Shown here: positions 3,267 through 40,484 of the stretch, piece by piece
Position numbering within the stretch: the stretch's first letter is position 1
How the letters are laid out: each line of letters starts with the position of its first letter
Source of the DNA: Anaerolineae bacterium
GTDB taxonomy: Bacteria; Chloroflexota; Anaerolineae; UBA4142; SHND01
DNA: 56,369 nt
Reading direction: 5' to 3'
Assembly (NCBI GenBank): GCA_022072245.1
Contig: JAJVIA010000032.1
Location: forward strand, 1-56,369
Notes under the pieces: model-generated
What the model was told of the DNA's origin: nothing
The model's input: only the letters and a program-made list of their open reading frames with translations
Database searches by the model: none
Translations under genes and position numbers: made by a program

Positions 3267-4774
3267 CACGTCGAATTCGTCCACTGTTCCAATTCTTGCG
3301 CCAGCGCATCCAACGTCACCAAACGCGCCGCCGCCGCTTGACGCGGTTTGAATTCTATGGCGTTCTGCGCGACCGTCTTGGGGCCCACCGTGATTCGCAA
3401 TGGCAAGCCGATTAAATCGGCGTCGTTGAATTTGACGCCCGCGCTCTCGCTGCGGTCATCCACAAGCGCTTCCAAACCCGCAAAGAGCAGCGCATCCTTG
3501 ACCTGCGCCAGCGCGTCCGCCACTTCGGGTTTATCCGCGTTCAACGCGACGATACAAACGTCATACGGCGCAATCGTCCGCGCCCACAGGATGCCCTTGT
3601 CGTCGTGATGCGCGCCAATGTGCGCCAATAAAATCGCGCCGAGATCGAGTTCCATCGTCACCGCGATAGGTTTTTGCGCCTTGCCGTTCACGTCGAGGAA
3701 ATTGGCGTCGAGCGCGTACGGCGCGGAAACTCGACCGAGTTCAATGCCGCGCGCGAGTTCGAGCGCGCCGTCGCCTTCAGGGCTCGCGTCGCCCACGCGC
3801 GCCAATGCAATATCGGTCACTATATTCGGCGTATAATCGCGCGGCACATTCGTATTGAGCAAATGATAATCGGCTTTGTTCGCGCCGGCGACCAGATTCG
3901 GCGAATTCAAAATCGAATCGTCTATCACAATCGTCGCGCCGCGCGTGCCGATGGGCGAAGCGAAACCGGGCAGCGCGCCCACACGCGCAATCTCGTCGTT
4001 CGTCGCCCAGCGCAGCGTCGGGACGTCCAGCGCGCGCTTGACCTTGTCCTCGTCAATTTGCAAATCGCCGCGAATGACCGCAAAAATCACGCGCCCTTCG
4101 GACGCATAAAAAACGGCTTTGGCGGTGCGACTCGGCGGCACGTTCAAAAAACGCGCGAGCGCTTCAATCGTATCGCAATGCGGCGTCGCCACTTCTTGAC
4201 GCGGCAGCGGCGCTTCGGCGGCGGCGGCAGGTTTCAACGGCGTCGCGGCGGCGCGCGTCGCCGCGTACGTGCGCGCGGCGTTGGTAAAAACTTCAAGGTC
4301 GCGCGCCGGCGCGGTGAGATACCACACGCGCGCGTCCGCCGTATCGCGCGCCATCTGCGGCGCGATGCGCGTATATTCAAAAAAATCGCGCGCGATTTTC
4401 TGAAACACGCGCCGCGTCTCTTCAGCTGCCTCACGGCTCGCTTCGAACGACGTCACATGCAAACGCGTGACGCCGCCGCTGCGCCAATAGATGCGCGCGG
4501 GCAATTGTTTGTACGATTGGATTTCGGCGGACGCGAACGCGTCCAACGCGAGATGAGGCGCGCCGCGAATTTCGTGCGCGTCGAGCTCGCGCAAATCCGC
4601 GCGCAGCATGTGGCGCATTTGTGAAATCACATTCGCAGCGAACGGCAGATAAATTATCTCGCCGCGTTCGGCGGGACGAATCAACCCCGCGCGAAAAGCC
4701 AAGCGCAGCGTTTCATCCGTCAGGTCGGACGGCGCCTCACGCTTGGTTTTGATAAAAAGTTGAGAATATAACAT
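3266..4774 (-). CDS. ProRS-like protein with editing and anticodon domains but eroded catalytic core
   Basis: This 502-residue protein is clearly derived from bacterial prolyl-tRNA synthetase. It starts MLYSQLFIKTKREAP and has a motif-1-like YLPFAANVI. An INS/YbaK editing domain spans about 195-325, with Lys219 in RTAKAVFYA, GFASP at 270-274 and His304 in DYHLLN. ARGIELGRV and an anticodon-binding domain from IAPYDVCIV at about 401 follow. What is missing is striking. The stretch that should hold the PTHEE region is deleted, motif 2 (FRDE...RGREF) is replaced by IYWRSGGVTRLHVTSFE, the GGSGSHEF region is gone, and motif 3 (GCYGIGVSR) reads AVTMELDLGAIL. It is therefore unlikely to activate proline. 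I infer a trans-editing factor for mischarged tRNA-Pro or a regulator. The frame is intact, so it is not a recent pseudogene. The ATG at 4774 follows a TATACT box by 7 nt, so the message may be leaderless. Confidence 0.75.
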   Translation of the reverse strand: MLYSQLFIKTKREAPSDLTDETLRLAFRAGLIRPAERGEIIYLPFAANVISQMRHMLRADLRELDAHEIRGAPHLALDAFASAEIQSYKQLPARIYWRSGGVTRLHVTSFEASREAAEETRRVFQKIARDFFEYTRIAPQMARDTADARVWYLTAPARDLEVFTNAARTYAATRAAATPLKPAAAAEAPLPRQEVATPHCDTIEALARFLNVPPSRTAKAVFYASEGRVIFAVIRGDLQIDEDKVKRALDVPTLRWATNDEIARVGALPGFASPIGTRGATIVIDDSILNSPNLVAGANKADYHLLNTNVPRDYTPNIVTDIALARVGDASPEGDGALELARGIELGRVSAPYALDANFLDVNGKAQKPIAVTMELDLGAILLAHIGAHHDDKGILWARTIAPYDVCIVALNADKPEVADALAQVKDALLFAGLEALVDDRSESAGVKFNDADLIGLPLRITVGPKTVAQNAIEFKPRQAAAARLVTLDALAQELEQWTNST

Positions 4775-4781
4775 TGGAGCA

Positions 4782-4787
4782 AGTATA
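4782..4787 (-). promoter_or_regulatory. -10 box for the ProRS-like gene, likely leaderless start
   Basis: TATACT lies 7 nt upstream of the ATG at 4774 on the minus strand, so transcription would begin at or next to the start codon. No Shine-Dalgarno is present. The -35 region is only a T-rich run shared with the upstream terminator. Confidence 0.5.
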
Positions 4788-4804
4788 ATCGTAATTGCGA
4801 AAAC

Positions 4805-4836
4805 AAAAAAGCAGCGAGGCAACAACTCTCGCTGCT
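4805..4836 (-). terminator. Rho-independent terminator after DUF2442
   Basis: On the minus strand a 9-bp stem AGCAGCGAG/CTCGCTGCT with a 9-nt loop is followed by six T. It closes the DUF2442 transcript 15 nt after its stop codon. By the insertion model it was originally the terminator of the glycoside hydrolase gene. Confidence 0.85.
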
Positions 4837-4848
4837 TTTTGCTTTGAT

Positions 4849-4879
4849 TTTTATTTCGGCATGGCTGCCAACGCATCAA
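4849..4879. repeat. 31-bp direct repeat, copy 1 (end of DUF2442 gene)
   Basis: This sequence is identical, base for base over 31 bp, to 5354-5384. It contains the last codons (DALAAMPK and stop) of the DUF2442 gene in the same frame as in the glycoside hydrolase gene. Confidence 0.95.
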
Positions 4880-5132
4880 CTCCCGGCGCGGGCGCGCCGC
4901 GCAGCAATCCTTCGGCGCTTAGATCTTCATCCACATCGGGCCAGTGAATTCCAAATCCAGCGCCTGCAATCTGCCAGTTTTCGCGCTGTTGTGGTGTAGC
5001 ATGTAACAAGCGTGGATACCACACGATGGGCGCCGTAATCGTTCGTCCATCCCACAGGTCAACGCTTAGCGTATCCTCCGTAAAGTGGACATCTTTAATT
5101 CTTTCCCCAGCCGGAACGTCGTAGATGTTCAT
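4851..5132 (-). CDS. DUF2442 family protein with a borrowed C-terminal tail
   Basis: This 93-residue protein has the DUF2442 pattern: DVHFTEDTLSVDLWDGRTITAPIVWYPRL, then HWPDVDEDLSAEGLL. DUF2442 genes usually sit next to DUF4160 genes, as here, and the pair is often discussed as toxin-antitoxin-like, though not proven. The last eight residues, DALAAMPK, are the same as the end of the neighbouring glycoside hydrolase and come from the 31-bp direct repeat. The native C-terminus has probably been replaced during insertion. The start overlaps the DUF4160 gene by 38 bp, so translation is likely coupled. Confidence 0.85.
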   Translation of the reverse strand: MNIYDVPAGERIKDVHFTEDTLSVDLWDGRTITAPIVWYPRLLHATPQQRENWQIAGAGFGIHWPDVDEDLSAEGLLRGAPAPGVDALAAMPK

Positions 5133-5349
5133 TCCATCCCTCCAATAAGATCCGCTGATTTTCTTGGATTATCCTTTCAATCAGGCGCAACTCTTTAGGG
5201 CTATAACCAAGATTTCGCGCCAGACCAATTGGTTGAATCCAAAATTTTGCAGATTGCGCATCGCGATCAACATGGACATGCGGAGGTTCATGCAGGTCGT
5301 GACTAACAAAATAGAAGCGGTACGGGCCCACGCGCAGAACGCTTGGCAT
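5095..5349 (-). CDS. DUF4160 family protein
   Basis: This 84-residue protein has the DUF4160 signature FYFVSHDLHEPPHVHVDRD followed by AKFWI and a C-terminal helix around ELRLIERIIQENQ. It is the usual upstream partner of DUF2442. The start ATG lies only 6 bp after the stop of the glycoside hydrolase gene and has no visible Shine-Dalgarno, so it may depend on read-through from that gene. The function is unknown; the pairing suggests a small two-protein module that moves as a unit. Confidence 0.85.
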   Translation of the reverse strand: MPSVLRVGPYRFYFVSHDLHEPPHVHVDRDAQSAKFWIQPIGLARNLGYSPKELRLIERIIQENQRILLEGWNEHLRRSGWGKN

Positions 5350-5353
5350 TGTA

Positions 5354-5384
5354 TTTTATTTCGGCATGGCTGCCAACGCATCAA
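5354..5384. repeat. 31-bp direct repeat, copy 2 (end of glycoside hydrolase gene)
   Basis: This is the second copy of the repeat at 4849-4879. The two copies bracket 474 bp that hold essentially only the DUF4160/DUF2442 pair. Confidence 0.95.
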
Positions 5385-8283
5385 AGGCGGGTTTCCCGGC
5401 GATACGGAAGGCGTCCAATTCGCCGCGGTCAAAATCCAACTGCCACGCGGTCATGACGCCGACCCATTTTTCTCGTTTAGCCCACTGATACGCTTCCACA
5501 TACCACTGCGCCGCTTGTTCGGGCGAGTTGTCCGCGCCGGCGGGATGACAGGGACCGCCGCCGCAAGAACCGCCCGTATGAGTGGGCCAACCAAACTCGG
5601 TGGGCCAAACTTGTTTATTGCCATCGCCGTATTTGAGCATGATATTGTGGTACGTCAACATCGTGCCAAGAAAACCCCAGCTGTGATGCCGACTGTCAAA
5701 CGGCGCGCGGAACGACGCTTCAGGCCGATTGCACGCGGGATCCATGATATTGCACAAGGCAGGCACATTGAAACCGCTCGGATGCGCGCCAATCGCGTCA
5801 GAATTTTCCTTGAGCCCGTTCTGATACATTTGCTCCAAGAACACGCCATCGTCAATCGCAACGACGCCATCATTCCACCCCGTCGGCGTCGGCGCGCCCG
5901 AAACGACAACAATGTTGGGACATGCGGCTTTGATGCGCGGATATGCCGCCTTGAGCATATCCATATACAACGGCGCGGACAACGGTTTGCCGTGCCATTC
6001 CGTCAAGAGATTGTGTTCGTTCCACACTTCAATCGCGCCGAGACCTTTGCCGCAGTAACGCGCTGCGAGCCCTGCCATGAAATCCGCCGCATCGTTCATG
6101 TTATCCGGCGGACCGCTACCGCCCGCGCCGCCATCGGAACGCGACCACGATGGCGCGCACACGACGCTAAAAAGCACCTGGATGCCGCGCGCGTTTGCCT
6201 TGCCGACAAAATCATCGGTTGAACCCAAGTCCGCGTTGCCCTTGGAACCTTCCATATCGCACCAACGCACCTGAATCTTGACCCAATTGAAACCCATGCT
6301 TTGCACTTGGTTCAATTCGCCATCGCGGTCTTTGTTGGTCCAATCCAATTGAATGCCATACGCAAATAAATTCTTGCCCCCAAAGTTTCCGGTGGTCGGA
6401 GGCGGCGGCGCGGCGGTGGTAGGTTTCGGCGTCGGGCTGTCCTGACCCGACGACTTGACCTCGGTTGGTTTTACTTTGACGACCTGCGGCGCCTCTTTGG
6501 TCGGCGGCGGCGGTTCCGTCGGTTTGGGCGTCGGTTTGGCTTCGGCAAGTTTTACCACGCCGCTCACGGGCAAACCCGCAATCACGCTGCCGTCCACCGA
6601 AAGGACGACTTCGACCGTGTGTTGTCCGCTGTCTTGGGGCGCTTGCCAAACCACGCGCGGGTCCGTCACAGAGGTCTGGCCGATTTCTTGGCCATCCACT
6701 TTCCAAATCAGTTGGAGGCGATTTTCGACAGAGGTGGGTTGAAGCGATTTGTAATTTTCCAACACCGTCCAGATGCGTCCATCCGCGCCGGTGTTGGCGT
6801 CGTAATTGGCGACGGCAATGCCGCCGAGATTGTATTTCAAAGCGAGCGCGACTTTGCGCGCCAACGAATCGGCGTTTTCAAGCCACACCGTGTGCGACTT
6901 GTTGCTGCCATCGGTATAGTTGAAATAAAACAATCCGCTCGGTTCGTGAACTTGAATGCCGCCCGCCTGCTTCAAACCTTGCATTTCCAATGTAACCTGG
7001 CTGCCCGGCTGCGCGTTTGGCGGAATGCTCACATTGCCAATCAATTTCAATGCGTCGCTGAACGTAACGGGTGAATACGTCTCGGCGGTGCTGTCGCGCC
7101 CTTCCATCGGCGCAATCAACAAAATTTTACTGCGGTCAATTTGTTTGACCGCCCACGCCAGATATTGGTCTTGGAGCGCGGGTTCCCCTTCAAAGGCGCG
7201 CGGGTCGCTGAGCAGCGGAATTTTTACTTGGTCGGCATAACGGCCGAGCAGCGCCCAATCGTAGCCCGTCGTATCAAATTCTTCTTCGGAAATCGGCGTC
7301 GGCGCGGGCAGCGTCACCATCAAAGTTTTTTGCTGCGCGTGCAGCGCGGCGGCTAATTGTTTAATGAACGCGGTGAACAACGCGCGGTCGCCCGCGCTCA
7401 ACCCTTCGTACGAAACGTTATAGCCGCGATACACTTTTTGCACCGCGAGGTCCACCAGCGCGTTAATGTGCGCGCGGCGCGCTTCGGGGTCATCCATCAT
7501 GTTGCCCGTCAAATCGGTGCGCGCGCCGTTCGCGTCCACATTCGTAATGGTCGGGACCACCGCGAAATTTGAAGACGCATTGGTTTCGGGCGACGTCAAC
7601 GGTTCGCCCGCGATGCTGCCCGCATCCGCCAATTGCAAGCCAATCGGATTCACCTCGACGACAACATTGTCCGCCGCAGCGGGCAATACATTGCGCGCTT
7701 GAATATCCGCCGCAATGACGGGCGCGCGCGGATTGGTTTGCGTAATTACGACCGCGCGCGGCGCAAAATTCAAATCCGATTCAACGCGCTCGTCGTCAAG
7801 ATTCAAACGAAACGGAATTTTAAACCACCGCTGATTGTACAGCGCAAACACATCGAGCGTTTCATACGGCTCGACATCCAACGGCAAGGGCAAACTCAAT
7901 AGAGTCGCTTTGGGTTGTTCGCCCTGCACTTGGATGGCGTACACCGGACTCACCACGTCCAAATTCGAAGGCAAGCTTTGCGCGTTCTGGCCCGCGTTCA
8001 ACGCTTCGAGCGTTGTCGTCGTCAAACGCAGCGCCGCGCCATCTTTTACGGCGTCCTCCGGCACAATGATTTCGGCGCCATCGGAATTGTTGATAGTCAT
8101 GCCTTTGCTGTTGACAGAGGTATAGCCCAAATTGCCAATGCGCGAAGGCAGCGCGAGCGGCGGCAAAACCAAAACGAGACACGCGAGCATGGGCAGCAAC
8201 ACAAAATAAATCAGCGCCGAGCCGGGATGTTTGCGTAACCAAAAGGTAAATTGTTCGACGGGATTGGAAGGACCTACGTTCAA
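5356..8283 (-). CDS. Membrane-anchored two-domain glycoside hydrolase (GH18-like plus GH5/GH39-like)
   Basis: This 975-residue extracellular protein has a membrane anchor at about 24-46 (ALIYFVLLPMLACLVLVLPP) and a beta-rich stalk. A YaaH-type GH18-like domain follows at about 235-555, with GYNVSYEGLSAGDRALFTAF and the catalytic-type Glu in VSYEG. Then come an Ig-like segment (about 560-625), a Pro/Thr/Lys linker, and a C-terminal TIM-barrel domain from about 680. That domain has an acid/base-type Glu near 754 in EVWNEHN and a nucleophile-type Glu near 894 in PTEFGW, as in clan GH-A families. Likely roles are peptidoglycan or exopolysaccharide cleavage at the cell surface. The TTG start at 8283 has AAGGAG 10 nt upstream. 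Its last codons are duplicated in the DUF2442 gene. Confidence 0.75.
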   Translation of the reverse strand: MNVGPSNPVEQFTFWLRKHPGSALIYFVLLPMLACLVLVLPPLALPSRIGNLGYTSVNSKGMTINNSDGAEIIVPEDAVKDGAALRLTTTTLEALNAGQNAQSLPSNLDVVSPVYAIQVQGEQPKATLLSLPLPLDVEPYETLDVFALYNQRWFKIPFRLNLDDERVESDLNFAPRAVVITQTNPRAPVIAADIQARNVLPAAADNVVVEVNPIGLQLADAGSIAGEPLTSPETNASSNFAVVPTITNVDANGARTDLTGNMMDDPEARRAHINALVDLAVQKVYRGYNVSYEGLSAGDRALFTAFIKQLAAALHAQQKTLMVTLPAPTPISEEEFDTTGYDWALLGRYADQVKIPLLSDPRAFEGEPALQDQYLAWAVKQIDRSKILLIAPMEGRDSTAETYSPVTFSDALKLIGNVSIPPNAQPGSQVTLEMQGLKQAGGIQVHEPSGLFYFNYTDGSNKSHTVWLENADSLARKVALALKYNLGGIAVANYDANTGADGRIWTVLENYKSLQPTSVENRLQLIWKVDGQEIGQTSVTDPRVVWQAPQDSGQHTVEVVLSVDGSVIAGLPVSGVVKLAEAKPTPKPTEPPPPTKEAPQVVKVKPTEVKSSGQDSPTPKPTTAAPPPPTTGNFGGKNLFAYGIQLDWTNKDRDGELNQVQSMGFNWVKIQVRWCDMEGSKGNADLGSTDDFVGKANARGIQVLFSVVCAPSWSRSDGGAGGSGPPDNMNDAADFMAGLAARYCGKGLGAIEVWNEHNLLTEWHGKPLSAPLYMDMLKAAYPRIKAACPNIVVVSGAPTPTGWNDGVVAIDDGVFLEQMYQNGLKENSDAIGAHPSGFNVPALCNIMDPACNRPEASFRAPFDSRHHSWGFLGTMLTYHNIMLKYGDGNKQVWPTEFGWPTHTGGSCGGGPCHPAGADNSPEQAAQWYVEAYQWAKREKWVGVMTAWQLDFDRGELDAFRIAGKPAFDALAAMPK

Positions 8284-8645
8284 GAGCGTTATACTCCTTG
8301 CAAAGATAGTTGCGTCATCGTGGCGTGCGCGCGCGCGGCTATCGCGCTGATACGCGGCGTCAGCGTCTCAAAACTGGCGCGCCGCCAAGCGCGGTTAGCA
8401 GTCACAAAATGATATACCACGACAACCATACGATGGAACAGGTGATACTGCGGAAGAAAGCGCTATGCTTTGGTACGACTGAATTTTTCGGGTAAAGCGC
8501 AACCGTGCGGAAATTTTAACGATAATATCCTCACGAACTGCGCGGAGCGAAAACGATACTAGCACAAGCCAACTAATCCCGCAAATTGGCAGATGTAGGG
8601 ATATGAGATGAAACTCATACTACATCTGGCTCGATAAAATCGTCC
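8284..8645. other. Intergenic region between glycoside hydrolase and malQ
   Basis: These 362 bp have no convincing gene; the short plus frame at 8310-8495 has no family features. The region must carry the promoter of the glycoside hydrolase gene, but I see no clear -35/-10 pair. The only notable structure is the hairpin at 8591-8627. Confidence 0.5.
8591..8627. repeat. Two-part hairpin downstream of malQ
   Basis: The outer stem AGATGTAG/CTACATCT encloses an inner stem ATGAG/CTCAT with a 6-nt loop. It lies 19 bp beyond the malQ stop. No T run follows on the minus strand, so it is at best a weak terminator or a 3'-end stabiliser. Confidence 0.6.
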
Positions 8646-10193
8646 TTATGTTTGCGCGGACGGCGCGGTTTCCGCGCTCTCTTGCGACGCGACGCGGCCA
8701 TAAATTTTGGTCAGGTCCAACAAACGTTCGCCCAATTCGTCCGTCAATGCGTCCGGCGCCATGCGCCAACACCAATTGGGCGGACCCGAAACGCCGGGCA
8801 AATTCATGCGCGCCGCATTACCCAATTGCAGCAAATCTTGCGTCGTCGTCATTGCCGTATTGGCGACCGACGCCCACGCCGCGCGGATCAAATCCCAAGC
8901 AATCTCGGCGCCGTCGCTATTCAAATAGCGCCGCGTAAAATGTTTTTCCGCCGCGCTGGCTGAATCCCACCAGCCGACGGCGGTATCGTTATCATGCGTG
9001 CCGGTATAGACAACCCAATCGCGCGTATAGTTGTGCGGCAAAAACGCGGCTTCGGCGGTCCCGCCAAATGCAAACTGCATAATCTTCATGCCGGGAAATT
9101 CAAATTGGCGCAGCAGCGCATCCAGCCCCGCGCGCGATTGCGCGTCAAAATCGCCGAGGTCTTCGGCGACGATACGAATATCGCCCAAATTTTCGCGGAC
9201 GACCTCGAACAATTTTCCGCCGGGGCCCGCGCGCCATTTGCCTTCGCGCGCGGTCTTGGCTGTCGCCGGCACTTCCCAGTAATTGTAAAACGCGCGGAAA
9301 TGGTCAATCCGCACGACATCGCTCAACGTCAACGCGCTGCGAAAACGCTCGACCCACCAACGATAATTTTGTTTGGCGATAACGTCCCAGCGATACAAGG
9401 GATGGCCCCAAAATTGGCCGTCCTGACTGAAATAATCCGGCGGCACGCCCGAAACCAAAGTCGGGTTCAGCGCCGCGTCCAGCGCAAACAATTCGGGATT
9501 CGCCCACACGTCGCAGCAATCGCGCGCGACGTAAATCGGAATGTCGCCGAACAGCGCAATGCGCTGCGCGTTCGCGTACGCCTTGAGAGTCAACCATTGT
9601 TCATAAAACATCCATTGCAAATACATTTGGCGCGCAATGTCTTGCGCCAAGTCGCGCCGCGCGCGCGCCAGCGCATCCGGTTCGCGCGCGCAAAGTCCCG
9701 GCTCCCATTCGTACCACGCGCTGCGATTGTGCGCCTCTTTGAGCGCCAAAAATAACGCGGCGTCGTCCAACCACGACGCGTTTTCAGAAACAAATTTCTC
9801 GAACGCCGCGCGCTGCGCCGCCTGCGCGCGCGTTTGAAAATTTTCGTGCGCGCGTCGCAACAGATTCATCTTCCACGTAATCACCCAACCGTAATCAATC
9901 CGTTCGGTCGGAAAGGCGGGCGCATTTTCCACATCGCGCGCGTCGAGATGTTCGCGCAAAACAAGATGGTCGAGACTGATGAGCAGCGGATTGCCCGCAA
10001 AGGCGGACAGACCTTGATACGGCGAATCGCCATAACCGGTAGGGCTCAGCGGCAAAACTTGCCAATAGCTCTGCCCCGCGTCGGCGAGCCAGTCCACAAA
10101 CGCGTAAGCGGCGTCGCCCAAATCGCCAATCCCATACGGACCGGGAAAACAAGACGGATGCATCAAAACGCCGCTGCGGCGCGGAAATTTCAT
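8646..10193 (-). CDS. malQ: 4-alpha-glucanotransferase
   Basis: This 515-residue GH77 amylomaltase transfers maltosyl and longer glucan units between 1,4-alpha-glucans in the cytoplasm, in glycogen or maltodextrin turnover. All catalytic landmarks are present: the N-terminal GVLMHPSCFPGPYGIGDLG, nucleophile region VRIDHFRAF, acid/base IVAEDLGDF and the third carboxylate YTGTHDND. I start it at the ATG at 10193 (MKFPRRSGV), which has GGAG 6 nt upstream. It appears to be monocistronic. Confidence 0.95.
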   Translation of the reverse strand: MKFPRRSGVLMHPSCFPGPYGIGDLGDAAYAFVDWLADAGQSYWQVLPLSPTGYGDSPYQGLSAFAGNPLLISLDHLVLREHLDARDVENAPAFPTERIDYGWVITWKMNLLRRAHENFQTRAQAAQRAAFEKFVSENASWLDDAALFLALKEAHNRSAWYEWEPGLCAREPDALARARRDLAQDIARQMYLQWMFYEQWLTLKAYANAQRIALFGDIPIYVARDCCDVWANPELFALDAALNPTLVSGVPPDYFSQDGQFWGHPLYRWDVIAKQNYRWWVERFRSALTLSDVVRIDHFRAFYNYWEVPATAKTAREGKWRAGPGGKLFEVVRENLGDIRIVAEDLGDFDAQSRAGLDALLRQFEFPGMKIMQFAFGGTAEAAFLPHNYTRDWVVYTGTHDNDTAVGWWDSASAAEKHFTRRYLNSDGAEIAWDLIRAAWASVANTAMTTTQDLLQLGNAARMNLPGVSGPPNWCWRMAPDALTDELGERLLDLTKIYGRVASQESAETAPSAQT

Positions 10194-32975: not shown

Positions 32976-34907
32976 ATGAACGGCGTCTCTCTCTTGCTCC
33001 GGCGGCTAGACCGTTTTTTTGCAAATCTTGTCACGCGCCTCCCTCCGCCCCTGAACGATCCGCGCGTGCGTTTTCGGCTGCAAGCAGGCGCCGCGATTGC
33101 GCTCGGCGTCTGTTTTTTTGTTTATCTCATCCTCTTTACAAATCTCCTCGCGCCGCTCAACCAACTGGCGACGGATTTTTTGTATCACCCCATTCCCGCC
33201 AATCCCAACGTCGTCATTATCGCCATTGACGGCAAAAGTCTGGACGAAATCGGAACGTATCCTTGGCCGCGCGCGGTCCACGCCGCCCTCTTGGACCGAT
33301 TGAGCGCGGAACCGCCGCGTCTCGTCGCGTTCGATATTTTATTTCCCCAACCTTCGCCGGACGATGCCGCCCTGGCGATGGCGATGGAAAAAAGCGGCAG
33401 CGCGCTGCTCGCGGCGAACGGCGTTTCGGCGGCGGCATATCCGCTCGAAGCGGAAACTCTGCCGACGTACGACGTGGTGATTCTGCCCGATGAAATTCTG
33501 CGCCAAGCCGCCAGCGCCATCGGGCATCGCACCGTAACGCCGGATGAGGATGGCGTTGTGCGCCGCATCGCCACCGCGATTCAAGCCAATGGTATTCAGT
33601 ATCCCGTCTTGGGGCTCGCGGCGGCGGCGCAAGCGCTCGGCGTTAAAAACATCGAATACGATTTACCCGCGCGCACGGTGCGCGTCGGCGCGCTCCAGAT
33701 TCCGGTGGACGAGTACGGCAGGATGCTGTTGAATTTTCCCAGCCCCAGCGCGGGCATCGCCACCTATTCGTATGTGGATGTTTTTCGCGGCGTCGTACCG
33801 GCAGCCACATTTCGCGACAAACTCGTCTTTATCGGCGGCGCCGAAAGTATCGAAAATCAAACCTACACCATCCCGCTCAGTTTGGATGGCGCCAAAGCGA
33901 ACGATATTCAATTGCAAGCCGATATTGCGAGTATGTTGCTCAATACGCCGCCCAACACCTTGCAGCCGCAAGGCGCGCTGGGTCAATTGGCGCTGACGCT
34001 AGCTTTCGCGCTGCTCGCCGGTTTGACTCTGCCGCATTTGCGTCCGCTGTATGCGATTGCGTTAACGCTGGTGTATCTGTTGGGGTTATTGCTTTTTACA
34101 TTCGAAGCGTTTAATCGCGGCGTCATAATCCAAATTTTATATCCCGCGCTCGCGCTGCTCATTACCGCCTTGAGCATCACGACGTTCCGCTATTTGTTTG
34201 AAGAACGCCGCCGCCGCTTTTTGACGCTGCTGTTTCGGCGCTATGTGCCGCCGGAAAGCGTGGGGCGCGTGGTGGATGCGATTGACCGGGGCGAATTGCC
34301 GCTCACCGGCGCGCGCCGCGTCGTAACCGTGTTGTATGCGGATTTGCGCGGCTTTGCCACCTTGTCGGATGAAACGACGCCGCAAACCGTTTTGCAATTG
34401 GTCAATCGCTATATCGAAATCGCCTTGCAACCGATTCAAGCGGAAGGCGGCACCGTTTCCAAACCGATGGGCGATGCCTTGATTGCGATTTGGAATGCGC
34501 CGCTCGACCAAGCCGACCACTGCGCGCGCGGCTTGCGGACGGCAATTCAAATTCAGCGCGATTTAATGCGCTATCAACAAAAGCGCGCAACCGAAGAAAA
34601 ATTAAATTTTGGCATCGGCATTGCCACCGGGTGGGCTGTTTTGGGCAATGTCAGCGCGCTGGGCAAAGTGGAATATACGCTCGTCGGCGATACGGTCAAT
34701 GTCGCCGCGCGCATCAGCGCCTTTGCCAACAACAATCAGATTTTGGCGGACGGCGCAACCGCCGGGACAAACGTCCCCGGCATTACCATGCGCGCCTTGA
34801 CGCCGGTGCGCGTGCGCGGCCGCAAAGAACCGCTGCCGGTTTGGGAAGTGCGAGACGACGAACCGCCCGCCGCGGTGAGACCTGACGCGGAAGAGAACGA
34901 CGTTTAA
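32976..34907 (+). CDS. CHASE2-domain class III adenylate cyclase
   Basis: This 643-residue membrane protein has a TM helix at about 40-60 and an extracytoplasmic CHASE2 sensor (about 62-330: PNVVIIAIDGKSLDEIGTYPWPRAVHA, then FDILFPQPSPDD). Three TM helices (about 335-405) and a cytoplasmic cyclase domain follow (about 440-625). Metal-binding Asp residues are in VLYADLRGFATLSD and the downstream KPMGDALIAIWNAP. YTLVGDTVNVAARIS carries the adenine-selecting Asp and the Asn/Arg transition-state pair. The active site looks complete, so cAMP production in response to an external signal is expected. It converges with the GT2 gene, overlapping by 4 bp. Confidence 0.93.
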   Translation: MNGVSLLLRRLDRFFANLVTRLPPPLNDPRVRFRLQAGAAIALGVCFFVYLILFTNLLAPLNQLATDFLYHPIPANPNVVIIAIDGKSLDEIGTYPWPRAVHAALLDRLSAEPPRLVAFDILFPQPSPDDAALAMAMEKSGSALLAANGVSAAAYPLEAETLPTYDVVILPDEILRQAASAIGHRTVTPDEDGVVRRIATAIQANGIQYPVLGLAAAAQALGVKNIEYDLPARTVRVGALQIPVDEYGRMLLNFPSPSAGIATYSYVDVFRGVVPAATFRDKLVFIGGAESIENQTYTIPLSLDGAKANDIQLQADIASMLLNTPPNTLQPQGALGQLALTLAFALLAGLTLPHLRPLYAIALTLVYLLGLLLFTFEAFNRGVIIQILYPALALLITALSITTFRYLFEERRRRFLTLLFRRYVPPESVGRVVDAIDRGELPLTGARRVVTVLYADLRGFATLSDETTPQTVLQLVNRYIEIALQPIQAEGGTVSKPMGDALIAIWNAPLDQADHCARGLRTAIQIQRDLMRYQQKRATEEKLNFGIGIATGWAVLGNVSALGKVEYTLVGDTVNVAARISAFANNNQILADGATAGTNVPGITMRALTPVRVRGRKEPLPVWEVRDDEPPAAVRPDAEENDV

Positions 34908-35692: not shown

Positions 35693-36630
35693 TCCAACGG
35701 CGCGCGACTGAGCGCAATGACCGCTTCGTACGCCGCCAACTGTCGCTGCAATGCGGCGTCAGTCATTTCGCCGCGCTGCGCTTTTTGTTTGGCGAGACGC
35801 AGCGCGCGCCGCAGCCCCGCCCGCACCAAAAGCCGCGCGCACACATTCCACGCGCGCGAATAATGTTTTTGAAATAATGTGAACCGCGCTTTCCACAACT
35901 CGACAAACATTTGGGCGCGGAATTGACGCGTGCTGCGCGCTTCATGGTGAACAATTTTTGCTTGCGGCACACACCAAATCTGCCATCCCGCGCGCCGAAT
36001 TCGCATACACCAATCCACTTCTTCGGCATAGATAAAAAAATCATTGTCCAAACATCCGACCTGCCGCGCCGTTTCAGCGCGCACGAGCAACGCCGCGCCG
36101 AGCGGATGGTCAATTGGAAACGGCGCGCCCTGTTCATACTTGCGAAAAGAATAACGGCCATTCCAGCGAGATTCGCGCAAGCGCCAATTGACGGGAAACA
36201 AATCCATATAGATTTGCGCCAAACTCGGAAAACGAAACGCGGAATGTTGCCGCGCGCCGTCCGCGTAAAACAAACTGGGTCCGCAGGCGCCGGCGCGCGG
36301 ATGCGTTTCCATAAACGCGACCATTTTTTGCAGCGCGTCGGCGTCTTGCGTCAAAATTTCAGTGTCGGGATTGAGGAGCAGCCAAAATTTTCCTTGCGCG
36401 CGTTCCAAACCTTGATTGTTGGCGCGCGCAAAACCTACATTCACATCATTTGCAATCAATTCCACCGCAGGAAAACGGTCGCGCGTCATGCGAACGGATT
36501 GATCCGTCGAAGCGTTGTCTATCACAATAATTTGCGTCGTGAGCGCGCGGCACGCGAGCGCCAGCGATTCCAAGCATCGTTCCAGCATGGCTTGCACTTG
36601 AAAGGACACAATGACAATCGTCAAATCCAT
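35689..36630 (-). CDS. GT2 glycosyltransferase (rhamnosyltransferase-like)
   Basis: This 313-residue enzyme has LTIVIVSFQVQAMLERCLESL, IIVIDNASTDQSV, NVGFARANNQGLERAQGKFWLLLNPDTEI, GPSLFYADGARQHSAFRFPS, GAALLVRAETARQVGCLDNDFFIYAEEVDWCMRIRRAGW and HHEARST, typical of rhamnosyl- and related GT2 enzymes in O-antigen or capsule synthesis. I place the start at the ATG at 36630 (MDLTIVIVSF), since the 17 residues upstream are not family-like. The pair of GT2 genes forms a two-gene operon for surface glycan assembly. Confidence 0.88.
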   Translation of the reverse strand: MDLTIVIVSFQVQAMLERCLESLALACRALTTQIIVIDNASTDQSVRMTRDRFPAVELIANDVNVGFARANNQGLERAQGKFWLLLNPDTEILTQDADALQKMVAFMETHPRAGACGPSLFYADGARQHSAFRFPSLAQIYMDLFPVNWRLRESRWNGRYSFRKYEQGAPFPIDHPLGAALLVRAETARQVGCLDNDFFIYAEEVDWCMRIRRAGWQIWCVPQAKIVHHEARSTRQFRAQMFVELWKARFTLFQKHYSRAWNVCARLLVRAGLRRALRLAKQKAQRGEMTDAALQRQLAAYEAVIALSRAPLE

Positions 36631-36900
36631 TTTGAAATCAAATCCGCATATTTTTCGAAACGCCTTGCTCTGCTGCCTCATTCGGCTCGACAGGTCTGCC
36701 CAAGCTCATTCACACCACAAATTGTAGGTTGCGTTGCGTGACCCACAAGATAACCGAGTATTACGTAAAATCTTGATGTTTCGGATAGTAAAGAAAGTAC
36801 TCTAATCCTATGGCGCTTGATGCGAAATGATGGCTATACTGCTTGAAAGGAGAAAAAAGTTAAAAATTCAAGTTAGATTTTTGTGATTTTCTGAAACGCT
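36631..36900. other. Intergenic region before the membrane/DRHyd module
   Basis: This is relatively A/T-rich sequence with no gene. A motif TGTAGGTTGCGTTGCGTGACCC near 36724 resembles small dispersed repeats seen in other genomes, but only one copy is present here. AAAGGAG at about 36847 lies 50 nt before the next ATG, too far to serve it. Confidence 0.45.
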
Positions 36901-38952
36901 ATGTTACGGATTTCCGTCTATCACTGGGTCCCCATCGCGGAAAACCTGTTGTTTGAAATCGAAAAACGCTTGCGCGCCTTGGCGCCCCACCAAGTCAGCG
37001 ATATAGAGATGGAACGTGACGCCGTTACGTTCCACACAACCTATCAATACAGTCGCGATTTTCGCACTGTGGCGTTTTTTCCCCTGCCCGGCAAAATCAA
37101 TCAGCGCGGTTTTTGTCAACACACGCTTACGATTGCGCCCATCCCCGGCATTGCGCTCAACGCGCTCTTGAATGACCTCGTACCGGATTTTGTTCAACGC
37201 GTCAGCGAGCTGCTGTATGCCGTGCTTCCCGATTCCGCGCGCAGCAAATTGGCAATCTTGAGCGCAGGCATTGCGCCATTTCAACAATTCCAAGTTACGA
37301 CTGTGGACCCGCCGGTGGAACAGGCGGCATGCGCGTTCTTGCAGCAAAATCAAGTGTCCGCCATTTTTTTGGATGAACGCTCCGCCGACGAGATGCGCGT
37401 CGGGTTTTCGATTCCCACATTGCATCTGGACGTTAAACCTTTTGCGGGCGACGCCATTGCCGCCACAAGCGGCAGCGGCAACAACATTCTTTTGTACGCT
37501 ACAGAATTTACGCCGGACGAATGGGCAACGCATGACAGCGTGATTTACAAATACTGCGCGCTCGTCCTGTATGCGCGCACATTAGATTCTGTGACGCTAA
37601 CGCTGCGCCAAGCGCGCGACCACATTACGCCGCTGCGCCGCCGCCTCGTGACCGCGCTGCAAGGCAATGTCGCCGAACAGCTTGAAACTTTGACTCAGCT
37701 CAAGCGGTATCTGATGTATGTTAATATCAAACTCCCCGTCATCCAAAAAGTCAGCCACCAACTGCGCGCCACGCGGCACACGCAAACTTTTGCCGCGAAA
37801 ATAGCGACGTTCGACGAACCCATCAAAGTTTTTGGCTATCCGACCATTCGCAGCATCGAAGATACGCTTTGGCAGCCGCCCTATTTGATTGGCAAAATTG
37901 ACGACGAAACGCGGCGCGCCGGTTCACAATTTGACGAGGATATCGAAGAAATCCAAATCATTTCGAGCGAACTCGCGCAGATGCTCGAAAGCAGTCTGCT
38001 ATCGGAACAGCTGCGGATTGCGCGCCAGACGCTGGACGCGGCGCAAACGAGTCTCGAAATCGAACGCAGCGCGAAAAATCTAACCAACGCGCTCAAGAGC
38101 GCCGCCGTACTTTTTGTTACGGGGCTGGGGATGCTCATTGCGGCGCAACAAGGGCTCGGTTTCGCGGGGATGGTCGCGGCAGGCATAACCTTTGCGGTCT
38201 TGGGCTATTTTGTCACCACGTTTGCGCTCAAGCGCCGCAAAGCATATTTTCGGCTCGTCATTCCGGTGCACGCGCCTTTTGCGCCCGATACGCTCGCGCG
38301 CTGGATTGGTCGGCACGCCTTGTTAAAGCACAAGGCGAACGGCAATCAAATTACATGCAGCTGGCAGCAAACGATTCCGGTGCGAATGATGGGGGCGGCG
38401 ACTCTGCCGGAAACGGCTTTGCGTCCCGCCCCATTTTTGCGCCAGCGTTTCGACGTGACCGTCGAGCTGGAACGGCGCGGCTTTATCCATACCATCACAA
38501 TCGAAACCGAATATCTGACGGCGGATTTCGAGAGCCGCGACATTGTCGAACACGTTCTGGGCGAATTGTTGACTAGCGAACAAGATGGGGCGCGCACACC
38601 CGCCGGGCAATCGGTCTATGTGCAAACGCTTTCCTTGCTCGGTCTGTCCCTCGAACAACAACTGCCCGCGCTCAATAATCTGCTCACCTTGCCGTCGGCG
38701 CAGCTCTCGCAGCTCATGACGACGGGCGATTATAAATTAGAGGACGCCAACTTGTCGCGCCCAGAGCTGTATGTTCTGCAAGATTTGAACGGGCAATTGC
38801 GCGCGTATCAAGAATGGCTGCATGAGACCTTGGAGAATCCGAAACGGCGGCGCTTGCTGGAACTCATCGGCGTACAAAATGTGCGCGACAAGTTGACGCT
38901 GCTCAAACAAATCGAGGAGGACCGCCACAAGTATGCACAACACTTTGTCTGA
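36901..38952 (+). CDS. Unrecognised two-helix membrane protein with coiled coil
   Basis: This protein has 683 residues. An N-terminal soluble region (about 1-340) starts MLRISVYHWVPIAENLLFEIEKRL; I cannot assign it to a family. A likely coiled coil follows at about 345-395 (FDEDIEEIQIISSELAQMLESSLLSEQL). Two TM helices lie at about 396-440 (SAAVLFVTGLGMLIAAQ and GMVAAGITFAVLGYFVTTFAL). A mixed domain (about 450-570) and a helical C-terminus follow. There is no signal peptide. The last 20 bp overlap the next gene, which encodes a DRHyd/TIR-like protein, so the two should act together. The ATG at 36901 is the first codon of the open frame; no Shine-Dalgarno is visible. A defence or stress-signalling module is possible. 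Confidence 0.7.
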   Translation: MLRISVYHWVPIAENLLFEIEKRLRALAPHQVSDIEMERDAVTFHTTYQYSRDFRTVAFFPLPGKINQRGFCQHTLTIAPIPGIALNALLNDLVPDFVQRVSELLYAVLPDSARSKLAILSAGIAPFQQFQVTTVDPPVEQAACAFLQQNQVSAIFLDERSADEMRVGFSIPTLHLDVKPFAGDAIAATSGSGNNILLYATEFTPDEWATHDSVIYKYCALVLYARTLDSVTLTLRQARDHITPLRRRLVTALQGNVAEQLETLTQLKRYLMYVNIKLPVIQKVSHQLRATRHTQTFAAKIATFDEPIKVFGYPTIRSIEDTLWQPPYLIGKIDDETRRAGSQFDEDIEEIQIISSELAQMLESSLLSEQLRIARQTLDAAQTSLEIERSAKNLTNALKSAAVLFVTGLGMLIAAQQGLGFAGMVAAGITFAVLGYFVTTFALKRRKAYFRLVIPVHAPFAPDTLARWIGRHALLKHKANGNQITCSWQQTIPVRMMGAATLPETALRPAPFLRQRFDVTVELERRGFIHTITIETEYLTADFESRDIVEHVLGELLTSEQDGARTPAGQSVYVQTLSLLGLSLEQQLPALNNLLTLPSAQLSQLMTTGDYKLEDANLSRPELYVLQDLNGQLRAYQEWLHETLENPKRRRLLELIGVQNVRDKLTLLKQIEEDRHKYAQHFV

Positions 38953-39664
38953 ACTGGAACATGTCCAGAGCATCCTGTCCGTCCTCGCGCAAATTTTGGC
39001 GCGCGGCTTGACCGGCGAACAGCGCGATACGGTTCTGCGCGGGATGCCCGTCGTTTTGGGCAAACGCAACGGCGATGAATTTTCTTTTTATCGCGCGCTG
39101 CTCGATACGTACGAAGCGCGCCAAGAGCTGGATTTTGTCGTTGACCTGACGCGGCGCATCGAAGGCACGCGCAGTTTTTATCAAGACGTCGGTCCCGACC
39201 TAGACCGCTTGCGTTTTTTGCTCAGCAAACATCAGCAGCAGATGCGCCACAATCAAACCAAGCCGTTTGTGTTTGTGCTGATGCCGTTCCGCCAAGAACA
39301 TTTTGCCATCTATGAACGCGCCATCAAACCGACGCTCGAAAATCTGAGCTGTCGCGTGGAACACGCCAAAGACGCGCACACGGTCGAACGCATCGTCGAG
39401 ATGATTTTTACGCAAATCGCGCGCGCGCGCTTTATCGTCGCGGACACATCGGGCAAAAATCCAAACGTGTTTTACGAAATCGGCTATGCTCACGCGCTCG
39501 GCAAAAAGGTCATCTTGCTCGTACAAGAAACCCAAGATATTCCGTTCGACATTGCCGGGTTGCGGCACATTCAATATAAACCGCACGCGCTCAACGCGCT
39601 GGCGGTGGATTTGCGCGCGACCGCGCAAGCGTTATTGCGCGAAACAACCGAAGCGGTCGCGTAA
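38933..39664 (+). CDS. Protein with N-terminal helical domain and DRHyd (deoxyribosyltransferase-like) domain
   Basis: This protein has 243 residues. The C-terminal domain (about 118-235) reads PFVFVLMPFRQEHFAIYERAIKP, AHTVERIVEMIFTQIARARFIVADTSGKNPNVFYEIGYAHALGKKVILLVQ, then IPFDIAGLRHIQY. This is the pattern of nucleoside 2-deoxyribosyltransferase-like (DRHyd) domains, Rossmann-like relatives of TIR and SLOG domains, with the conserved Asp in IVADTSG and Glu in NVFYEIGYAHA. Family relatives are thought to cleave N-glycosidic bonds of nucleotides and are common in bacterial conflict and signalling systems. The N-terminal helical domain (1 to about 110) may couple it to the upstream membrane protein, like an effector-associated domain. 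The start lies inside the upstream gene. Confidence 0.75.
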   Translation: MHNTLSELEHVQSILSVLAQILARGLTGEQRDTVLRGMPVVLGKRNGDEFSFYRALLDTYEARQELDFVVDLTRRIEGTRSFYQDVGPDLDRLRFLLSKHQQQMRHNQTKPFVFVLMPFRQEHFAIYERAIKPTLENLSCRVEHAKDAHTVERIVEMIFTQIARARFIVADTSGKNPNVFYEIGYAHALGKKVILLVQETQDIPFDIAGLRHIQYKPHALNALAVDLRATAQALLRETTEAVA

Positions 39665-39677
39665 GCGGGCGGCTGCG

Positions 39678-40484
39678 CTAATGCCAATCGCGGCGCGGCT
39701 TGATGGGAATTTGTTTGAACTCGCGCATCAATTCAATCAGACGTTCGACGGTGGCGTGAAACATTTTTTCGCCAAATTCGCGCGTGGCGACAGTCGGGTC
39801 GCCGGCGACGCCCGTTTTGGAAAAACGCGACCACCAATCCATCCACGCGTACGCAGCCGGTTTGGGATGATCCCAATTAAAGTATTTCAAATCCGGCACG
39901 CCCAATTCGCGCACCGCCTTGTCCATCTGCACCAAATCGGGCCGCAAATACAACATTAGCGCCGTTTCAAACTCGCAGGCGTGACCGATGCCGCCGTATT
40001 CCGATTTGCGATGCGCCGCAACCAAATCGCGAATCAATACATCGTCCACCGCCGCGTTGCCCGCCATCGCGCCAACAAGCGCCCCCGTTTGCAACACCGC
40101 TTTGCGCGCCGCCAATTCGACCAACGACGAATTCGAGCCGTGACCGTTGACCAACATGATATGCGTGAAACCATGCCGCGCCACGCTAATCGCCGCGTCC
40201 GCGAAAAAGGACAATAACGTTTCCATCGAAGACGTGAGCGAGCCGGGAAAATCCATGTGATGGTCTTCAAAGCCGACCGGTAAAACCGGCAGCGAAAGCA
40301 ACTCATCAGGCGCGCGGCGCGCCGCTTCAAAACACACCGCCTCGACAATCACATTGTCCGTATTCAGCGGCAGATGCGGACCATGGTCTTCAATCGAACC
40401 AATCGGCACGAGAATCGCTTTTTTCGCCGCAACCGCTTCGCGCACCTCGACCCACGTCAAATCATCATAACGAAACTTGGGCAT
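39678..40484 (-). CDS. Creatininase-family amidohydrolase
   Basis: This 268-residue protein has all family metal-site motifs: VPIGSIEDHGPHLPLNTDN, FEDHHMDFPGSLT, LVNGHGSNSSL and GHACEFETALMLYLRP. The superfamily includes creatininase, mycofactocin peptidase MftE and formamide hydrolases in riboflavin or F420 synthesis, so the substrate is open; cyclic amides are typical. I start it at the ATG at 40484 (MPKFRYDDL), with GGAGGAG about 11-13 nt upstream. It follows the peptide-type ABC importer genes on the same strand, so it could process an imported amide, with a weak hairpin in between. Confidence 0.9.
   Translation of the reverse strand: MPKFRYDDLTWVEVREAVAAKKAILVPIGSIEDHGPHLPLNTDNVIVEAVCFEAARRAPDELLSLPVLPVGFEDHHMDFPGSLTSSMETLLSFFADAAISVARHGFTHIMLVNGHGSNSSLVELAARKAVLQTGALVGAMAGNAAVDDVLIRDLVAAHRKSEYGGIGHACEFETALMLYLRPDLVQMDKAVRELGVPDLKYFNWDHPKPAAYAWMDWWSRFSKTGVAGDPTVATREFGEKMFHATVERLIELMREFKQIPIKPRRDWH

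Follow-up and report, generated by a model that had tools for sequence, protein, structure and literature searches.

The stretch of DNA analysed here, called the window, is 56,369 nucleotides (nt) long and comes from an Anaerolineae bacterium (GTDB lineage Bacteria; Chloroflexota; Anaerolineae; UBA4142; SHND01; GenBank assembly GCA_022072245.1, contig JAJVIA010000032.1, forward strand). It carries two overlapping open reading frames (ORFs), of which the first encodes a predicted membrane protein and the second a smaller protein whose C-terminal part resembles the DRHyd domains, relatives of nucleoside deoxyribosyltransferases (NDT) and of TIR domains. ORF1 and ORF2 form a genuine pair of genes whose distribution is narrow and whose membrane partner is undescribed. 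An initial annotation of the window, made from the sequence alone, had described both genes, and their coordinates confirm the lengths and the overlap of 20 bp that it gave.

36901..38952, plus strand: ORF1, 683 amino acids (aa), ATG start; putative membrane-anchored protein of an undescribed family, with carriers in one genus only (4/6 genomes)
38933..39664, plus strand: ORF2, 243 aa, ATG start; N-terminal helical domain and C-terminal DRHyd domain

The pair is present in four of the six searched genomes of the genus (the genome of the window counted), always overlapping and at one locus. In the other three carriers, identity to the window protein is 72, 62 and 52% for ORF1 and 85, 80 and 77% for ORF2, and the overlap measures 20, 20, 14 and 29 nt across the four. 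A ribosome-binding-like stretch lies ahead of the ORF2 start codon, and a similar purine-rich stretch is found at this place in all four carriers; we therefore infer that the two genes form one translationally coupled unit.

38914..38921, plus strand: GAGGAGGA, ribosome-binding-like stretch within the 3' end of ORF1, upstream of the ORF2 ATG
36682..36900, no strand assigned: divergent intergenic region before ORF1, 219 bp, low GC (39.7%), presumed promoter region

The promoter scan found no promoter-like site in this intergenic region, and the combined scan for promoters and terminators gave 2 and 7 candidate sites, respectively, against shuffle means of 2.0 and 6.2. The Rfam scan of positions 36500-39800 returned zero matches. 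The ratio of nonsynonymous to synonymous substitution rates (dN/dS), which is rough here because synonymous sites are near saturation, was 0.14-0.21 for ORF1 (four of six genome pairs; dS was saturated in the other two), 0.08-0.14 for ORF2 (all six pairs) and 0.04-0.21 for four tested flanking genes where dS was measurable. These ratios indicate that purifying selection acts on both genes. Furthermore, the GC and third-codon-position GC (GC3) of the pair fall inside the range of the neighbouring genes. ORF1 and ORF2 thus behave as real genes.

The order of genes around the locus is the same in all six genomes of the genus (G000 to G005): CHASE2-cyclase, two glycosyltransferases, the pair or nothing, creatininase and OppC; several matches in this comparison are partial because the compared stretches end there. 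OppB was found in five of the six, with no match in the G001 stretch. Neither ORF1 nor ORF2 was found in G002 and G004, where the glycosyltransferase and the creatininase, taken as longest reading frames, are separated by 21 and 12 bp within one contig. The locus in these genomes is therefore a true empty site and not an assembly gap. A tree of Lon and pyrophosphatase, rooted on the sister family and covering 15 of the 20 genomes of the order, has the form ((G000,G003),(G001,(G005,(G002,G004)))). The grouping of G002 with G004 received 97% support from both proteins together, 85% from Lon alone and 58% from the pyrophosphatase alone. This rooted tree suggests that the ancestor of the genus already had the pair, with a single loss later. 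An alternative tree, built from four flanking genes, groups G002 with G005 (78% support) and would therefore require two losses instead of one. Under either tree the pair is dispensable and without visible mobility.

Outside the genus, ORF1 was found in none of 54 searched relatives. A sample of 396 genomes of the class gave the four carriers and two weak matches, with no further convincing relative, and the sample of 400 genomes of the phylum matched only in the own genome and in two weak cases. No ORF1 relative was found in the plasmid records, and in viral contigs the profile scans for relatives of the pair, ORF1 included, gave none. A scan for an ORF1 pattern across 84,980 species returned two loci, which appear to be those of the carriers G003 and G001. 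Remote matches in G123, G387, G701 and G737 (E 0.004-0.009) are short, cover only the long helix or the transmembrane (TM) stretch and were set aside as chance. The initial annotation had made its proposal depend on conservation of the pair beyond this genome: such conservation exists within the genus, and none was found outside it. As far as searched, this narrow spread limits the general importance of the pair.

The structure model of ORF2, computed from an alignment of 34 rows, has a mean predicted local distance difference test (pLDDT) score of 81, and its two parts differ in quality.

38933..39253, plus strand: ORF2 residues 1-107, helical domain with no convincing family match (pLDDT of 10-residue blocks 54-77)
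39260..39661, plus strand: ORF2 residues 110-243, DRHyd (NDT/TIR-like) domain (blocks from residue 111 pLDDT 85-98, the last 75)
39476..39478, plus strand: codon of E182, the catalytic-type Glu, aligned with the YELG-motif Glu of Rcl/DNPH1 and invariant in 34/34 aligned rows

A Foldseek search with this model gave 95 PDB matches at E<=0.001, and the best 50 of the 95 are led by NDT and DNPH1. The matches include NDT (8qc0, E 2.6e-6), DNPH1 and CMP N-glycosidase (4jen), with the TIR domains of SPARTA and SARM1 ranking lower. At the level of sequence, the nucleoside 2-deoxyribosyltransferase family PF05014 was matched at E 2e-5 with 24.9 bits, below its gathering score of 28.8, and the CAP12/Pycsar TIR domain PF10137 was matched weakly (E 0.004). 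The best PADLOC match is PDLC00733 ("Effector, TIR"; E 4e-13), which covers ORF2 residues 127-217 and is limited to the TIR part of the profile (263-356 of 388 positions). Weaker PADLOC matches are to TIR effector, PDC-S35, PD-T7-5 and ThsB models (E 4e-4 to 0.045). The motifs quoted in the initial annotation are present, MPFRQEHF at residues 117-124 and ARFIVADTSGKNPNVFYEIGYAHALGK at residues 165-191. With both the modelled fold and the Glu of the YE(I/L)G motif, ORF2 is predicted to belong to the DRHyd/TIR-like Rossmannoid superfamily, as had been proposed. The column of DNPH1 Asp80 (mutated in the D80A and D80N entries 8rpt and 8rps) holds Ile158 in ORF2, as mapped by eye on a hidden Markov model (HMM) alignment, and this residue would argue against a simple deoxynucleotide hydrolase. 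One report describes an active-site tyrosine, hydrogen-bonded to the Glu, as the mark of deoxy-specific enzymes (PMC11204291).

The N-terminal part of ORF2, already described as helical in the initial annotation, is helical in the model as well. Its family matches, each in one of four members, are IMS_C (E 0.005) and ARTD15_N (E 0.16), neither of them convincing. Searched at E<=0.01 in the 400 phylum genomes, residues 1-107 were matched in five, namely the own genome and four with weak matches (E 1.6e-4 to 6.4e-3). In the loci of weak matches inspected by eye (L063, L064 and L065), no DRHyd protein was seen. Two plasmid matches (H1 and H2) also reach into the N-terminal half, and their alignment shows N-termini of different make-up. 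In the searched genomes, this domain is thus convincingly found only beside ORF1.

ORF1, which had been called unrecognised, matches no Pfam or NCBIfam family at E<=1 with the window protein, and its best match among PDB sequences has an E of 0.87. The model of ORF1 is poor (mean pLDDT 47, alignment of 3 rows). It lays out an alpha/beta N-terminal domain in the first 120 residues (pLDDT 59-73), long helices, a hairpin, and a strand-rich and then helical C-terminal part.

37879..38094, plus strand: ORF1 residues 327-398, long predicted helix running into the membrane, coiled-coil-like (low-confidence model; weak coiled-coil-type matches)
38095..38235, plus strand: ORF1 residues 399-445, two-helix membrane hairpin with a very short loop (hydropathy in 4/4 carriers)

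The coiled-coil-like character of the long helix is suggested by the predicted helix together with the weak coiled-coil-type matches. The two TM helices of the initial annotation correspond to the hydrophobic segments of the hairpin, and the basic residues that follow it (KRRK/KRH/QRRH) suggest that both ends of ORF1 are cytosolic. The loop is only a few residues long in the prediction, which would place nothing of size outside the membrane. Sensing had been one of the roles suggested for the membrane protein; with no extracytoplasmic domain and hydrophobic segments a few residues apart, sensing on the outside is unlikely. Identity to the window protein in the three relatives is highest in the helical region of residues 205-326 (86/79/66%), followed by the N-terminal domain (80/64/61%) and the strand-rich part (62/54/39%), and is among the lowest in the membrane segment (47/43/43%). 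The conserved helical region and the variable membrane segment would fit an anchor better than a pore.

Several identities were considered for ORF1 and rejected. Pfam matches to ThrE (E 0.023), S_4TM (0.045), DUF6232 (0.073) and 7TMR-HDED (0.16) occur in one of four members each and are taken as chance. The PADLOC model LeoBC, which we take to be a dynamin-type GTPase, matches all four members weakly (best E 0.0013), and the P-loop GxxxxGK[ST] is absent from all four. An internal duplication had been considered, the parts flanking the hairpin being alike in predicted secondary structure; it received an hhalign probability of 0.1%. In Foldseek, the low-confidence model has no match at E<=0.001; the best CorA match has an E of 4.4e-3 and a template modelling score (TM-score) of 0.28, and the weak fold score together with the absence of the GMN motif from the four carriers speaks against ORF1 being a CorA.

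In the neighbourhood of the pair, the Pfam scan of 19 chosen window proteins found ordinary genes, one of them without a match. They encode an H+-pyrophosphatase, sigma-70, HSP20, Lon, the CHASE2-cyclase, two glycosyltransferases, a creatininase, an oligopeptide permease and binding protein, a 3-hydroxyacyl-CoA dehydrogenase, a LysM protein, an Mrp/NUBPL-type NTPase, a fumarase-type lyase, a GAF-HD protein, a formate-tetrahydrofolate ligase, a class III aminotransferase and a DnaJ-28-type protein. PADLOC matches at E<=1e-5 were found in three of ten tested neighbours: sigma-70 matched MzaA (E 5e-70), Lon matched BrxL (1e-14), DolB and IetA, and the cyclase matched PycC (1.5e-23). Because Pfam accounts for each of these proteins, the matches are read as shared housekeeping-type domains (sigma-70 regions, Lon/AAA and class III cyclase). 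We conclude that the locus is no defence island, and the setting that the initial annotation had envisaged is not borne out among these glycosyltransferases, creatininase, oligopeptide transporter, Lon, sigma-70 and the like. The CHASE2 sensor with its class III cyclase domain (window positions 32976-34907, plus strand) sits 2 kb from the pair, beyond two genes of opposite strand. Its score with the Pycsar cyclase models (E 1.5e-23) could be explained by the cyclase domain alone.

Beyond this locus, relatives of the ORF2 domain are frequent and have different neighbours. A DRHyd match at E<=0.001 was found in 17 of 60 relatives (4 in the genus and 13/54 outside it), and the domain type occurs in 72 plasmid and 39 phage records, where 80% coverage of ORF2 was never reached, and in 53 viral-contig loci. 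In a Sphingorhabdus plasmid (NZ_CP022549.1, L078, 4695-6315, plus strand), two consecutive DRHyd-type proteins of 279 and 243 aa lie in a restriction-modification locus, immediately after a Dcm methylase, a very-short-patch-repair endonuclease and a type II restriction enzyme. Another plasmid copy is separated by a few genes from a toxin-antitoxin pair of the AbiE type. In the Streptococcus phage Javan37 (L081, 3947-4642, plus strand), a DRHyd-type protein sits in the lysogeny module, with the cro/antirepressor region on one side and the repressor gene on the other, a usual place of cargo genes in a prophage. In another genus of the same order (L071, G006:C14:26000-36000, 4291-5262, minus strand), the DRHyd gene adjoins a DUF1156 gene, with a DUF499 gene one gene further away on the other side, and this neighbourhood looks like a defence-type operon. 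At L075 (G025:C167:4500-15000, 4985-8657, minus strand), an AAA_35 ATPase bearing a CAP12/Pycsar TIR-type domain at its C-terminus adjoins a protein of 677 aa in which two hydrophobic segments are combined with an AAA_22/nSTAND1-like domain, possibly another pair of an enzyme and a candidate membrane protein; ORF1 has no match in that genome. At L070 (G031:C291, 3970-5235, minus strand), a DRHyd domain is followed in one protein by a formylglycine-generating-enzyme-like stretch, which we take to be the FGS domain. These readings of neighbourhoods come from a few loci. The DRHyd domain family can thus occur in conflict settings; the surroundings of the pair itself do not resemble one.

The initial annotation had the membrane protein sense or anchor and the small protein cleave or bind a nucleotide. 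The explanation that we consider best, and put forward tentatively, is of this kind: ORF1 would be a cytosolic sensor or scaffold, anchored in the membrane, that restrains ORF2 or sets its place, and ORF2 would be an enzyme cleaving nicotinamide adenine dinucleotide (NAD+) or another nucleotide. ORF2 would act as a DRHyd/TIR-like N-glycosyl hydrolase, with NAD+ or a related nucleotide as its most likely substrate. ORF1 would sit in the inner membrane through the two-helix hairpin, with its N- and C-terminal parts both in the cytosol, and would bind ORF2, probably through the helical N-terminal domain of the latter, so as to hold it inactive at the membrane. On an internal signal, such as phage activity or other membrane or nucleotide stress, ORF1 might release or cluster ORF2, and the freed or clustered enzyme would deplete its substrate. 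This anchored-regulator model is favoured because the helical part of ORF1 is conserved and its membrane segment variable, and because the helical domain of ORF2 offers a natural contact. The constant overlap and the disappearance of both genes together at the empty sites speak for it as well. A related TIR-like NADase, Swarozyc, is reported to be held inactive until triggered (PMC13174449).

The pair may be a signalling or defence module, and the sequences would suit either defence or another stress role. It is doubtful that the pair forms an immune or stress system of two genes that has so far gone undescribed, with a DRHyd NADase or nucleotide-signal enzyme co-translated with, and controlled by, a new membrane-hairpin family. 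Several findings weigh against the anchored-regulator model: the tested neighbours are ordinary genes, the evolutionary rate of the pair is like that of the flanking genes and unlike that of typical mobile defence genes, and the cytosolic domains of ORF1 cannot be named from a model of such low confidence. Moreover, the joint absence of both genes may stem from a single deletion, and for this reason co-loss is weak evidence of joint function.

With vertical inheritance, one fixed locus, a flank-like rate and ordinary neighbours, a lineage-specific metabolic or stress module with no part in defence is a serious if rather unlikely rival. ORF2 would then salvage or sanitise a nucleotide or nucleoside at the membrane, with ORF1 as a membrane-bound or transporter-like partner of CorA-like topology, to which the weak Foldseek likeness would correspond. 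However, the Asp80 position of DNPH1 is not kept in ORF2, ORF1 has about 238 residues beyond the hairpin in addition to lacking the GMN motif, and the pair is dispensable, being absent from two of the six genomes.

The roles may also be reversed: as the sensor, ORF2 would produce a nucleotide signal, such as an ADP-ribose derivative, to which ORF1, as the effector, would bind on the cytosolic side so as to perforate the membrane. Enzymes and TM effectors are joined in small operons in Panoptes (PMC12657218), TM-macro Thoeris (PMC11204291) and PycTM (PMC11224242), and the hairpin of ORF1 is indeed followed by a predicted strand-rich stretch. We regard this order as unlikely: little of ORF1 is less conserved than the membrane segment, which fits an effector less well than an anchor, the bulk of the conserved sequence precedes the hairpin, and the window ORF1 has no macro, SLOG, CARF, SAVED or S-2TMbeta match at E<=1, the nearest being S_4TM in a single member. 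That ORF1 and ORF2 are neighbours with separate functions, overlapping through compaction only, would suit the few independent events (one genus, one locus, one or two losses) and is quite unlikely, as overlap and order are kept in all four carriers at 52-72% ORF1 identity and the N-terminal domain of ORF2 is convincingly seen only next to ORF1.

Among known enzymes, ORF2 resembles NDT, DNPH1 (Rcl) and CMP N-glycosidase (PF05014) in its Rossmannoid fold and in the aligned Glu of YE(I/L)G. In contrast to NDT and DNPH1, it stays below the Pfam gathering score, has Ile158 in place of Asp80 and carries an extra N-terminal helical domain. ORF1 recalls the CorA magnesium channel in having an N-terminal domain, long helices and two TM helices, within the limits of a weak fold likeness of a low-confidence model. 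In CorA, the GMN motif follows the first TM helix and there is no large part after the hairpin, whereas ORF1 lacks the motif and has a large part after its second TM helix. NDT-like effectors associated with retrons use their domain in defence. Unlike in retrons, no reverse transcriptase was found among the 19 scanned window proteins, and no Rfam match at the pair.

Compared with PycTIR of Pycsar and with Cap12, the C-terminal domain of ORF2 is similar in matching PDLC00733, presumably a Pycsar model to judge from the adjacent accession PDLC00734 (PycC), and weakly PF10137. It differs in that ORF2 has no cyclic-nucleotide-binding Pfam family at E<=1 and that no dedicated pyrimidine cyclase adjoins the pair. 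Membership of Pycsar through the CHASE2 cyclase was rejected, as that gene occurs in 6/6 genomes of the genus and the pair in 4/6, and the two are not adjacent. With TM-macro Thoeris and Panoptes, the pair shares the small operon of a nucleotide enzyme and a membrane protein with TM helices, but the window ORF1 has neither a macro nor an S-2TMbeta match and has large parts on either side of the hairpin. Thoeris membership was set aside, with no SIR2-SLOG or TM-macro match in the window ORF1 and ThsB matches of ORF2 only at E 0.016 and 0.045. An S-2TMbeta effector of Panoptes or of the cyclic-oligonucleotide-based anti-phage signalling system (CBASS) was likewise set aside, with no match in the window ORF1 and S_4TM (E 0.045) in one of four members.

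Swarozyc, described as a DUF4062 protein of the TIR-like NADases that is triggered by the phage portal (PMC13174449), is similar in its TIR/NDT-related domain, conserved Glu and auxiliary domains. In contrast, DUF4062 is not among the four Pfam matches of ORF2 at E<=1, and the pair includes a gene for a membrane partner. In the searched open-access literature, as judged by titles and the starts of abstracts, no report was found in which a DRHyd or deoxyribosyltransferase protein forms a pair with a membrane protein of this kind. In immunity, enzymes of the DRHyd and TIR-like types serve widely as executioners and as makers of signals, many of them with partners yet to be identified. In an overlapping operon, the pair couples an enzyme of this type with a membrane protein that is an orphan, and the natural empty site in sister species makes its contribution directly testable.

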